Source: an uncultured Sphingorhabdus sp. (lineage in GTDB: Bacteria > Pseudomonadota > Alphaproteobacteria > Sphingomonadales > Sphingomonadaceae). Taken from it: 42,602 nucleotides of DNA. This document shows, in pieces, positions 13,996 through 16,890 of this stretch; position 1 is the stretch's first letter; each line of letters begins with the position of its first letter. The notes beneath the pieces were generated by a model. The model saw only the letters and a program-made list of their open reading frames with translations. It was not told where the DNA came from and searched no databases. The translations under genes were made by a program, and so were the position numbers. The stretch is from assembly GCA_905479715.1 (NCBI GenBank), contig CAJQNR010000106.1:1-42602 (forward strand), given 5' to 3'.

Positions 13996-14772
13996 ATGAA
14001 CCAATTGCCCATTTTCCTGAATTTGAAGGGTCGCAGGATCCTTCTTTTGGGAAGTGGTGAAATGGCGGAGGCCAAAAGACGGCTATACGAGCGAGCCGGG
14101 GCGGTCATCACCGATGATGAAAATGCTCGTGGCCTTGCGCTTGCTGTGGTCGCGCTGGAAGATGATGAGGAAGCGGTCGCGGCCGTCGCGCGCCTGAAAG
14201 AGCAGGGCCTGCTGGTCAATGCCGTCGACCGGTCTGCGCTGTGTGACTATACCACCCCTGCGATCATCGACCGGGACCCGGTGCTGATTGCTATCGGGAC
14301 CGGGGGTGCCTCGGCGGGGCTGGCCAAGGCGCTGCGGCAAAGGCTCGAGCAATTGCTGCCAGCCAGCCTCGGGATACTGGCGGAGGCGTTGCTCGCTGCG
14401 CGAGACCGAATCCAGCAGGTCTGGCCCGAGGGTGCCGCCCGGCGAAAGGCAATTGATGCCGCGCTCGATCCCAATGGGCCTCTCGACGTGATGACCGATC
14501 ATGCGGCGGAAGAGGTCGATGCATGGCTCGATCAGCCGCACGGGCAGGCCCGATCGCAGGTCATCGATCTCGAATTGACCAATCCGGACCCCGATGATCT
14601 GACCCTTCGCCAGGCGCGTTGGCTGGGGCAGGCTGATCAGGTTTTTGCGAGTGACGATGTGCCTGAAGAGGTGTTAGACCGAGTTCGTGCAGATGCGCAG
14701 CGTTTCTCGCTGTCGCTCTGGGATGAACGGCCGACGAACGGATTGACCTTGCGGATAAGGATGAAAATATGA
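13996..14772 (+). CDS. precorrin-2 dehydrogenase/sirohydrochlorin ferrochelatase homologue with a degenerate methyltransferase tail
   Basis: The N-terminal domain of CysG/Met8 type oxidises precorrin-2 and inserts iron to make siroheme. The Rossmann loop LLLGSGEMAEAKRRL (about 16-30) resembles GGGxVAxRK; LVNAVDRSALCDYTTPAIIDR carries the catalytic aspartate, and IGTGGASAGLAKALRQRLE matches the conserved serine loop. After about residue 190 there are some 60 residues (PDPDDLTLRQARWLGQADQ onward) that align with the first strands of the SUMT/CobA methyltransferase normally fused in CysG (GDPELLTLRA), but the rest is absent, so this looks like a decayed fusion. Start ATG 13996 has GGTGA five bases upstream. 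It overlaps the next gene by four bases. Confidence 0.85.
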   Translation: MNQLPIFLNLKGRRILLLGSGEMAEAKRRLYERAGAVITDDENARGLALAVVALEDDEEAVAAVARLKEQGLLVNAVDRSALCDYTTPAIIDRDPVLIAIGTGGASAGLAKALRQRLEQLLPASLGILAEALLAARDRIQQVWPEGAARRKAIDAALDPNGPLDVMTDHAAEEVDAWLDQPHGQARSQVIDLELTNPDPDDLTLRQARWLGQADQVFASDDVPEEVLDRVRADAQRFSLSLWDERPTNGLTLRIRMKI

Positions 14773-15233
14773 ACGGAATGACCGGCGGAGACATTGTCAC
14801 CGTTCTGCAAACCGCAATGGCGCCGGCGTTTCTTCTGGTCGGTATCGGGGCAATGCTGAACCTGTTTGCGGGGCGTCTGGCACGGATTATCGACCGTTCC
14901 CGTGATCTGCAGGCGCTCTACAGAACCACGACGGGTGTCGACCATGATCTGGTGGTTGCCGAACTCGGAGATTTGCAGGTGCGTCTGAGGGTCGTTAACA
15001 GCGCCATATTCCTGAGCGTTGTCAGCGCCATCATTGCCTGCATCCTGATCGGTATGCTGTTCATCATGGGGTTGACGGGCAGGGACCTTTCCCTCGCGGT
15101 CGCAGGGGCGTTCGTTGTTGCAATAAGTCTGCTTTCGATGGCGCTCATTCAATTCTTGCGGGAAGTGCGGATCGGCGTCCGCGATTTCATGATCCGCGAG
15201 GAATATCTCGAAAGATCGGAAGACGCCCAATGA
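14769..15233 (+). CDS. DUF2721 family membrane protein
   Basis: A 154-residue inner-membrane protein of the DUF2721 family, function unknown. Hydrophobic helices are at about 16-33, 78-103 and 106-126, with the family segment GRLARIIDRSRDL after the first helix and a charged C-terminal tail. Its ATG overlaps the TGA of the preceding gene (ATGA), so the two are translationally coupled, although I know of no functional link between DUF2721 and siroheme synthesis. Its stop codon touches the outer end of a large hairpin that belongs to the opposite strand. Confidence 0.85.
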   Translation: MNGMTGGDIVTVLQTAMAPAFLLVGIGAMLNLFAGRLARIIDRSRDLQALYRTTTGVDHDLVVAELGDLQVRLRVVNSAIFLSVVSAIIACILIGMLFIMGLTGRDLSLAVAGAFVVAISLLSMALIQFLREVRIGVRDFMIREEYLERSEDAQ

Positions 15234-15235
15234 AA

Positions 15236-15269
15236 AGAGGCTGCCGATCCAATCGGACCAACAGCCTCT
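15236..15269 (-). terminator. terminator of the minus-strand RNA candidate
   Basis: An eight-base outer stem (15236-15243 with 15262-15269) and five-base inner stem (15244-15248 with 15252-15256) are followed on the minus strand by TTTT. On the plus strand no T-run follows, so it serves the minus-strand transcript. Confidence 0.65.
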
Positions 15270-15316
15270 GAACATGGGTCAGCGGTAGGAAGTGCCGCTG
15301 CCGGGTTGCCTGATCG

Positions 15317-15376
15317 CTAGATCAGATTTGCCCCCCGAACGGATTTTTCCGACCCCTGTGCTGAACCATGAGACAT
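15317..15376 (-). CDS. 19-codon micro-ORF with near-perfect Shine-Dalgarno
   Basis: The frame ATG (15374-15376) to TAG (15317-15319) encodes MSHGSAQGSEKSVRGANLI. GGAGG (complement of 15384-15388) lies seven bases upstream within a much longer anti-SD match, the strongest ribosome-binding site I saw in the window. The stop codon is inside the loop of the CTGATC/GATCAG hairpin, so translation would melt the fold downstream. The peptide is polar with no run of one amino acid, so a classical amino-acid attenuator leader is unlikely, and no gene follows in the same direction. It could be a dual-function RNA or a ribosome-trapping RNA. Function unknown. Confidence 0.4.
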   Translation of the reverse strand: MSHGSAQGSEKSVRGANLI

Positions 15377-15538
15377 CGGACCACCTCCTTTCGCTTGTGA
15401 ATGTAATACGAACTGTTGCATTGAATTCTTCTCCGCTGTTCGACGATCCAAATGTGAATCAGATCCCGCCCGCGAACAAGCCTTGAATTTTTTTATTTTG
15501 CTGTCACAATTGCGCGTTCCGGCCTGATATCAAGCGGA

Positions 15539-16084
15539 TCAGGCCCGGCAATCTTCCACCACACGACTGAATTCGGGCCAGACCGGAATGGCGAGCGATT
15601 GCAGGCCACTGGTTTCGACGGCAAAGCGACCGCGACTATAGGCAATACGGTCCATCATCAGGTCGCCCGGTGATACTGAAATGGCAGCATATTGCGGCGA
15701 ACCACCACTGTTGCTGGCGGAATAGGATTGCAGGCCCGCACTGGCGCGTAACAGCATGGTGGCCTTGTCACCAACCGAGCCGGAGCGCGACAGGATTAAT
15801 TGACGGCGCGATTTGTCGCAGCGAATGATGAAAACAGCATCTCTGTCGGTCTCGCCGAATAGTGCGAGTGACCCGCGATTGTCTTTCCGATACACCCATT
15901 GGCCCGGGGTGATTGGCCAGTCCGTCCATAGGCCCTGCGGCTGTGCCGGTGGTGGAGGTGGAGGCGTTGTCGCGACGGGTTTGACCGGTTGCGGCGCGGG
16001 AGCCGGTTCTGGCGGCGCGGTCGAGCAGGATGTAAGTGCAAGCAAGAGCAGCGGAATGGACAGCGGTGCAGGAATGATTCTCAT
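15539..16084 (-). CDS. putative lipoprotein with proline-rich linker
   Basis: A 181-residue protein of unknown function. It has a signal peptide with lipobox LTSC (Cys20), then an Ala/Pro-rich linker with a run of six prolines, then a globular domain (GLWTDWPITPGQWVYRKDN onward) containing a possible disulfide pair in IIRCDKSRR and the C-terminal VEDC. The domain resembles uncharacterised sphingomonad lipoproteins; I cannot name a family. ATG 16084 is chosen because it begins the signal peptide; the open frame back to 16135 would overlap tlyA's start. It is divergent from tlyA with a 50-base gap. Confidence 0.75.
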   Translation of the reverse strand: MRIIPAPLSIPLLLLALTSCSTAPPEPAPAPQPVKPVATTPPPPPPAQPQGLWTDWPITPGQWVYRKDNRGSLALFGETDRDAVFIIRCDKSRRQLILSRSGSVGDKATMLLRASAGLQSYSASNSGGSPQYAAISVSPGDLMMDRIAYSRGRFAVETSGLQSLAIPVWPEFSRVVEDCRA

Positions 16085-16134
16085 GACAAAGGAATATGGC
16101 CAAAAGCGCGGCGCTAGGCTAGTCCTGATTTGCA

Positions 16135-16890
16135 ATGACCCAGTCTCAACCCAAAGCCGTGAAACAACGCGTTGACCAGATATTGGCTGACCGTGGCCTC
16201 GCCGAAAGCCGTGCCAAGGCGCAAGCCTATATCATGGCTGGTCTGGTGACCGTAGCGGGCAAAAAAATCGACAAGCCGGGGCACAAGATAGCAAGCGATG
16301 CCGCGATTGAGCTCAAGGGCAAGGATCATCCATGGGTGTCCCGCGGCGGCATCAAGCTGGATCATGCGCTGCGCCATTTTGATCTTGATGTCACCGGTCT
16401 GACCGCCATGGATGTGGGGAGCAGCACCGGCGGCTTTACCGATGTGCTGCTGACCGGCGGCGCGAAAAAGGTCTATGCCGTGGATAGCGGTACCAACCAG
16501 CTCGCCTGGAAGCTGCGGCAGGACGATCGTGTCGTGGTACACGAGCAAACCAGTGCCCGTATTCTTACCGATCAGCATATCCCGGAAAAGGTCGACATCA
16601 TTGTGTGCGACGCAAGCTTCATTTCGCTCGTCAAAGTGCTGGAGCGGCCTCTTGAATTTGCGAAAGACAAGGCGACACTGATCGCGCTCATCAAACCGCA
16701 ATTTGAAGCGGAACGCAATGATGTCGGCAAGGGCGGTGTGGTGCGGGACGATGCGATTCGTCAGGCGGTCTGCGACAAAGTGAGAGACTGGCTGGTTGCG
16801 ACCGGCTGGGACGTTCTTGGAATCACCGAAAGTCCGATCACAGGTCCAAAAGGCAATGTAGAATTTCTGATCGGGGCGCGAAGACGTTAA
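16135..16890 (+). CDS. tlyA: TlyA-family rRNA 2'-O-methyltransferase
   Basis: A 251-residue TlyA/YqxC protein with an N-terminal S4 RNA-binding domain (RVDQILADRGLAESRAKAQAYI) and an FtsJ-like SAM methyltransferase domain. The SAM loop is MDVGSSTGGFTDVLL (about 86-100), with YAVDSGTNQL and IVCDASFIS following. Characterised TlyA enzymes methylate ribose in 16S and/or 23S rRNA and affect capreomycin sensitivity; the old name haemolysin is misleading. Which rRNA site is used here cannot be told. Shine-Dalgarno is weak. The gene precedes a MscS channel on the same strand. Confidence 0.93.
   Translation: MTQSQPKAVKQRVDQILADRGLAESRAKAQAYIMAGLVTVAGKKIDKPGHKIASDAAIELKGKDHPWVSRGGIKLDHALRHFDLDVTGLTAMDVGSSTGGFTDVLLTGGAKKVYAVDSGTNQLAWKLRQDDRVVVHEQTSARILTDQHIPEKVDIIVCDASFISLVKVLERPLEFAKDKATLIALIKPQFEAERNDVGKGGVVRDDAIRQAVCDKVRDWLVATGWDVLGITESPITGPKGNVEFLIGARRR

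Follow-up and report, generated by a model that had tools for sequence, protein, structure and literature searches.

We analyzed a 42,602-nucleotide (nt) stretch of DNA (the window) from an uncultured Sphingorhabdus sp. of the family Sphingomonadaceae (contig CAJQNR010000106.1), in which a probable small structured RNA is encoded on the minus strand. Between positions 15392 and 15232, this strand carries a 15-nt Shine-Dalgarno (SD) sequence, a 19-codon reading frame, two hairpins, and an intrinsic terminator, in that order. The SD, GAAAGGAGGTGGTCC (15392-15378), precedes an ATG (15376-15374) that is separated from GGAGG by 7 nt. The 19-codon frame (MSHGSAQGSEKSVRGANLI) ends at a TAG (15319-15317) within the loop of the hairpin CTGATC-TAGC-GATCAG. 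The next hairpin 3' of it is CAGCGG-CACTTCCTA-CCGCTG (15300-15280), followed by a 15-bp terminator stem (15269-15236) and then TTTT. An initial annotation made from the sequence alone had named these parts, and each was recovered here; its "near-complete" complement of the 16S rRNA 3' end, seven bases before the frame, was an understatement, since the complement spans 15 nt. It had also held the element to be independent of the flanking genes, and the gene beyond the terminator indeed lies on the plus strand, converging with the RNA. The features predicted at the locus are as follows:

15232-15445, minus strand: probable transcript, its 5' end predicted from a putative promoter and its 3' end from the terminator; a conserved block
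15378-15392, minus strand: 15-nt SD GAAAGGAGGTGGTCC, predicted complement of the 16S 3' tail with one G-U pair (16S tail of the relative G087; computed duplex, -27.4 kcal/mol)
15317-15376, minus strand: 19-codon reading frame with its TAG stop (translation, alignments, codon comparison)
15360-15370, minus strand: predicted long-range helix, 5' strand (CATGGTTCAGC, codons 3-6; compensatory changes across the class)
15273-15283, minus strand: predicted long-range helix, 3' strand (GCTGACCCATG), at the terminator foot (compensatory changes across the class)
15310-15325, minus strand: stop-codon hairpin, with the stop in the loop (sequence; alignment of genus copies)
15280-15300, minus strand: hairpin CAGCGG-CACTTCCTA-CCGCTG, whose loop can pair with the SD; its core coincides with an apparent integration site in the relative G007 (sequence, folding)
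15232-15269, minus strand: intrinsic terminator (terminator scan; compensatory changes)
15474-15479, minus strand: putative -35 box TTGTTC (from TTGW-N13..17-GANTC upstream of family loci)
15456-15460, minus strand: GATTC, a GANTC (CcrM-type) site overlapping a putative -10 box, CACATT (15456-15451); invariant in the 22-sequence genus alignment
15542-16135, minus strand: upstream neighbor gene with no family assigned, given for context and lying outside the RNA (homologue in 86/91 family contexts)

A 19-nt pattern spanning the SD and start, allowing up to 3 mismatches, had a single occurrence in the window and none in 100 shuffles, and the 173-nt stretch folded more stably than its shuffled versions (z = -5.3 against 200 shuffles). 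The terminator scan taken alone was nonsignificant (1 site versus 1.5 expected in shuffles). No promoter was detected by a sigma-70 scan of the minus strand at the locus, and an Rfam scan of the window at the default cut-off returned two tRNAs only.

Distribution and relation to CC2171

By blastn, the element was present in all 24 genomes of the genus (the window's own included) and in none of 16 other genomes of the order. This suggested a genus-specific novelty, a reading that was overturned by covariance model matches across the family. The model R1, built from 22 of the 24 same-genus copies, matched 105 of 119 family genomes (85 of 96 genera), nearly always once per genome. Conservation in 24/24 genus and 105/119 family genomes rules out chance or artifact as the source of the element. 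Within the genus, the SD and codons 1 to 3 were invariant except for one A/G difference in the SD. An exact pattern gave at least 119 matches among named genomes; the 80 listed carry sphingomonad names (for example, Sphingomonas, Novosphingobium, Sphingobium, and Erythrobacter) or broader group names. The core, with up to 3 mismatches, was found in 41 of 289 alphaproteobacterial genomes (4 in the family of the window), and a reversed control gave 0.

We compared the element with the Rfam family RF01867 (CC2171), reportedly first described by Landt in 2008. RF01867 matched the window RNA over positions 1-159 (E = 3e-4; 28.6 bits; curated cut-off, 75). At E ≤ 0.01, it matched 61 of 147 genomes sampled from the order; every one belongs to the window's family (61/64), and none scored above the cut-off (0/147); these family matches mostly coincided with the place of the R1 RNA. 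Across the class, 61 of 289 genomes matched (4 in the window's family), 9 of them above the cut-off. An Rfam scan of 12 class loci placed 5 in CC2171 above the cut-off, as was Caulobacter vibrioides among the 14 named control genomes. The likeness extends from end to end: both share the GAAAGGAGGUGAUCC core followed by a RUGUCUCAU-type start, a terminator, and the long-range helix, drawn in Rfam's structure line and present in the window RNA, that links the start region to the foot of the terminator. The window RNA differs in its far lower score, in its loops and middle hairpins, and in its helix letters (CAUGG/CCAUG versus CAUUG/CAAUG in CC2171). Since RF01867 matches 61 of 64 family genomes and none above the cut-off, these comparisons indicate that the element is an overlooked, divergent Sphingomonadaceae branch of CC2171, homologous yet failing the curated cut-off. 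The initial annotation's proposal of an undescribed system is therefore not sustained. Instead, an orphan Rfam family is extended to most sampled Sphingomonadaceae genomes, where the curated cut-off had missed it.

Genomes G130, G245, and G249 carry both main-type and CC2171-like copies; in G130, the second, CC2171-like copy (G130:C1:805104-805255) stands beside the main-type copy, and the two types are apparent paralogues in some sphingomonads.

In the portions available to us, the Rfam entry types CC2171 as a small RNA (sRNA) and makes no mention of a frame. Partial texts of other sources name RF01867 among structures improved by R-scape (PMC11701678) and assign a Mesorhizobium sRNA to CC2171 (PMC5596092). 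The available parts of these two and of PMC4117421, PMC12559287, PMC11005374, and PMC10117765 give no function for CC2171 and mention no frame. A description of a frame or SD in CC2171/RF01867 was not found in the literature covered, which did not extend to the original description and supplements, where translation may have been noticed earlier. Within this scope, three features look new for a CC2171-type RNA: the 15-nt SD/16S pairing, the frame with a placed stop, and the covarying helix.

Shine-Dalgarno sequence, reading frame, and fold

An exact GAAAGGAGGTGATCC was present at 85 of the 103 loci in the family and at 26 of 39 loci in the divergent or class set; the two sets share four genomes. 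Because a 16S tail was readable in 0 of the 24 window-genus genomes, where rRNA is seemingly absent or masked, the tail was taken from the relative G087 only. The 16S gene of G087 ends in GGATCACCTCCTTTCT, which pairs at 15 of 15 positions with the GAAAGGAGGTGATCC-type SD. The complement is thus perfect in most of the family and spans 15 nt with one G-U in the window genus. The computed duplex energy was -28.0 kcal/mol (-27.4 for the window-genus G-U form), compared with -9.2 for AGGAGG. In 14 genomes searched for the 15-mer, written with R for the A/G site, it occurred once in 12 and three times in G087, two of these being 16S ends; it was not found in G116, whose RNA copy has one mismatch. 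These counts leave 16S aside, with rRNA apparently missing or masked in many of these genomes. For orientation, 24.6% of Caulobacter coding sequences have an SD, according to the available text of PMC4117421.

The reading frame was conserved in its start and its length. Ninety-six of 103 family loci begin ATGTCTCAT, and the other seven have GTG or an altered third codon. In all 96, the first in-frame stop fell at index 15 to 22 (79 at 18), with stops in the other two frames scattered. Among class loci outside the family, the first stop lay at 20 to 30 in 28 of 28 (the best-scoring of 57), with a standard deviation of 2.1 versus 32 for each of the other frames. All three stop codons occur across loci. 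Even within the genus, the stop varies among TAG, TAA, and TGA, and it is at codon 20 in 23 of 24 copies and at codon 18 in one, which has a one-base deletion.

The encoded residues behaved differently. Over codons 7 to 18, 98 nearest-neighbor pairs contained 51 synonymous and 109 nonsynonymous single-base changes, falling about equally on codon positions 1, 2, and 3 (54/54/52). The corresponding nonsynonymous-to-synonymous (dN/dS-like) ratio was 0.79, or 0.90 with transition weighting. Since the sequences added for this comparison were filtered on frame length, frame lengths in that set prove nothing; the stop-position counts above (96 family, 28 class) were unfiltered on length. In 72 distinct 18-codon frames, codons 4, 5, and 9 were nearly or fully invariant, third base included (71, 69, and 72 of 72), which points to constraint on the RNA; codons 1 to 3 were fixed by the way this set was selected. 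Peptides differ strongly between orders. Together, these comparisons indicate that selection keeps the frame and its stop but hardly the peptide. Of the dual role first proposed for the element, as microprotein gene or ribosome-binding RNA, the microprotein half is weakened by the even spread of changes over codons 7 to 18, and ribosome binding is the better, though inferred, half. Loss of the SD and frame in relatives, named beforehand as a sign against the proposal, was not seen: both are kept family-wide.

Support for the fold was uneven. In the 22-copy genus alignment, 9 of 53 predicted pairs showed pair-keeping changes on both sides, in the terminator and the stop-hairpin region, whereas most others hardly or never vary and are uninformative. 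At longer range, codons 2 to 6 can pair with the segment preceding the terminator; the main branch uses CAUGG/CCAUG and the CC2171-like branch CAUUG/CAAUG, with other letters elsewhere. Across 32 distinct rows, with 3' strands placed by eye at 36 of 39 loci, 81% of cells were paired; shuffles averaged 68% and reached at most 76% (0 of 2,000 attained 81%), and slid registers gave 25 to 40%. When 55 sequences were compared without hand placement, true helix duplexes averaged -14.8 kcal/mol versus -12.3 for swapped partners. These tests indicate that the helix from frame start to terminator foot covaries across the Alphaproteobacteria. The compensatory changes sought in the stems are therefore present in the terminator, the stop-hairpin region, and this helix, and most other pairs do not vary enough to be informative. 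Overall, the evidence supports a structured, self-terminated RNA that combines a short frame under selection with an extreme SD.

The unconstrained fold of the window RNA was computed at -87.2 kcal/mol, and the best fold leaving the SD unpaired, which includes the long-range helix, at -75.8 kcal/mol. Since the SD-16S duplex (-27.4 kcal/mol) could cover this cost, binding of a 30S subunit could flip the RNA from one fold to the other. Among the 61 middle hairpins that could be parsed (42 of 103 could not), 44 had CTTCC or CTCC in the loop, and distinct loops paired with the SD at -5.0 kcal/mol, versus -3.7 when shuffled. The loops vary, and this modest difference leaves a conserved anti-SD loop that masks the SD as a possibility only.

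Proposed ribosome capture and competing explanations

We tentatively favor, at somewhat less than even confidence, a reading in which this is a ribosome-capturing RNA of the CC2171 branch that is refolded through translation and whose peptide is of little import. The RNA would be a free-standing, terminated transcript of roughly 165 to 215 nt. With 15 nt of the 16S tail available for pairing with its SD, it should capture 30S subunits very tightly, at a start codon one nucleotide on. The short frame would be present for translation or occupancy and then release at a set place, with the particular peptide not the aim. Translation would open the helix between the frame start and the terminator foot; through this opening, ribosome supply could set the fold of the RNA, and probably also its stability and pairing activity. 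We infer both transcription and translation of the RNA, and likewise that its purpose lies in being occupied by ribosomes.

Several observations weigh against this interpretation. The window's 28.6 bits misses the RF01867 cut-off of 75 bits and barely exceeds stray second matches (27.6 bits in G053 and 27.7 in G297), so that the case for homology rests on family-wide agreement in place, core, frame, and helix. The distant control Deinobacterium chartae also matches RF01867 at E ≤ 0.01, below the cut-off. R1 finds no match in 14 of 119 family genomes, and R1 and RF01867 scans detected the element in none of 83 genomes from seven sister families of the order; the RNA therefore appears dispensable in some lineages. 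In the helix comparison that gave 81%, the 3' strands were hand-placed at 36 of 39 loci, and loci L339, L340, L341, and L346 pair poorly. In the automatic helix test, swapped partners often matched the true one at single loci, and the best pairing fell elsewhere in about a dozen of the 55. When the RNA is folded computationally by itself, its SD is concealed: the unpaired probability averages 0.22 and exceeds 0.5 in 3 of 142 sequences. Finally, noncoding RNA (ncRNA) regions of Caulobacter are described as untranslated, except for two earlier unnamed ncRNAs, in the available text of Schrader 2014 (PMC4117421).

The RNA could instead be a small mRNA whose product is the 18- to 30-residue peptide, with RNA structure merely tuning expression. 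The conserved frame and precise stop fit this view, as do residues that recur within clades, such as a C-terminal HYR in one branch. However, the dN/dS-like ratio of 0.79 to 0.90 with its even codon positions, the divergence of peptides between orders, and the third-base invariance of codons 4, 5, and 9, which points to RNA constraint, make a peptide product unlikely. Dual-function sRNAs such as rnTrpL/peTrpL and Spot 42 (named in PMC10117765) likewise carry a short frame in a small RNA, but their peptide is reported to be functional, whereas that of the window RNA drifts and no operon follows it. Concealment of the SD in the RNA alone would suit a noncoding decoy or base-pairing sRNA with an incidental frame, whose purine tract would bind either mRNAs or the C-rich anti-SD loops of other sRNAs (e.g., alphaR8/SisA). 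Yet the conserved match runs on through GAUCC, which an anti-SD core does not need, and the frame, stop, and start codon are kept class-wide; we therefore consider this a rather unlikely account. AlphaR8/SisA-D and CrfA are similar in being alphaproteobacterial sRNAs involving SD-like or anti-SD-like tracts, but a conserved frame and a 15-nt 16S match are not described for them in the accessible part of PMC12559287.

The SD might also serve as a mere stability device: the RNA would be an sRNA active through its 3' half, and a bound ribosome would shield its 5' end. Promoter-like boxes do put the 5' end near the SD in some members, and the 3' half is structured. Alone, this idea leaves the narrow stop position and the helix from start region to terminator foot unexplained, and we judge it improbable. 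A cis-acting leader or attenuator of a neighboring gene is very improbable: a same-strand gene does lie upstream in 86 of 91 contexts, but the RNA has its own terminator and probable promoter, and the DUF2721 gene is convergent here and in 10 other contexts having one downstream. A leader-peptide attenuator calls for an operon directly downstream; the window's downstream gene is convergent.

Extended to the class, ribosome capture suggests an RNA that holds and counts ribosomes, with translation of a disposable frame of set length flipping its fold and hence its fate or targets. Such an RNA, with an SD almost as strong as the 16S tail permits, would compete for free 30S subunits and act as a sensor of translation capacity. 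We regard this joint proposal as conceivable but on balance doubtful. Ribosome capture gives CC2171 a testable mechanism: in the members examined, the SD is close to the maximum, and the frame is conserved for length and stop position more than for the peptide. If true, it would provide a natural case in which translation itself, not its product, is the function, and possibly a gauge of how many ribosomes are free, in a class otherwise perhaps sparing with SDs; an alphaproteobacterial translation-capacity sensor would long have been filed as an sRNA of unassigned function.

Promoter-like element, gene neighborhood, and insertions

A TTGW-N13..17-GANTC element lies upstream of 54 of the 103 family loci, compared with 1.3 on average and 5 at most in mononucleotide shuffles; of its 55 occurrences, 53 have a spacer of 15. 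At 84 of 103 loci, at least one GANTC lay within 150 nt, versus a shuffled mean of 44.5. The putative TTGW-N15-GANTC at 15456-15479 of the window is thus a likelier promoter than one of the sigma-70 type. GANTC is the methylation site of CcrM in Alphaproteobacteria and is linked to CcrM/GcrA regulation. Given the GANTC held in this conserved promoter-like element, control of the RNA by the cell cycle through DNA methylation (CcrM/GcrA) is a fair guess.

The convergent gene past the terminator (14769-15233, plus strand, DUF2721) is kept downstream in only 5 of 91 family contexts. By comparison, the gene at 15542-16135, which has no Pfam or NCBIfam family, has a same-strand upstream homologue in 86 of the 91 (contexts with at least 1.8 kb upstream) and is a possible functional partner of the RNA. 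Beyond it, 16135-16890 encodes a TlyA-like rRNA methyltransferase (S4 and FtsJ domains), divergent from the RNA and the upstream gene; a tlyA homologue is nearby in 47 of 91 family contexts. Neither the upstream gene nor tlyA was seen near the 28 class loci, for which flanks were up to ~1.5 kb.

A phage or plasmid origin was considered and rejected: the exact pattern is absent from viral contigs (by pattern search alone), and blastn finds nothing in plasmids. Two insertions into the RNA gene were observed. In L024 (G021), ~53 bp of inserted sequence containing inverted repeats lies directly after the stop codon, inside the stop-hairpin loop, leaving the frame and the flanking stem letters in place. 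In G007 (contig C14; L366:203-275, L367:7050-7216), the RNA gene is interrupted by a stretch of ~22 kb, one end of which carries a tyrosine-type phage integrase, and a new hairpin followed by T's stands after the 5' half of the split gene. Because a 24-bp repeat from the CACTTCC hairpin is present at each end of this stretch, the hairpin looks like an integration site.
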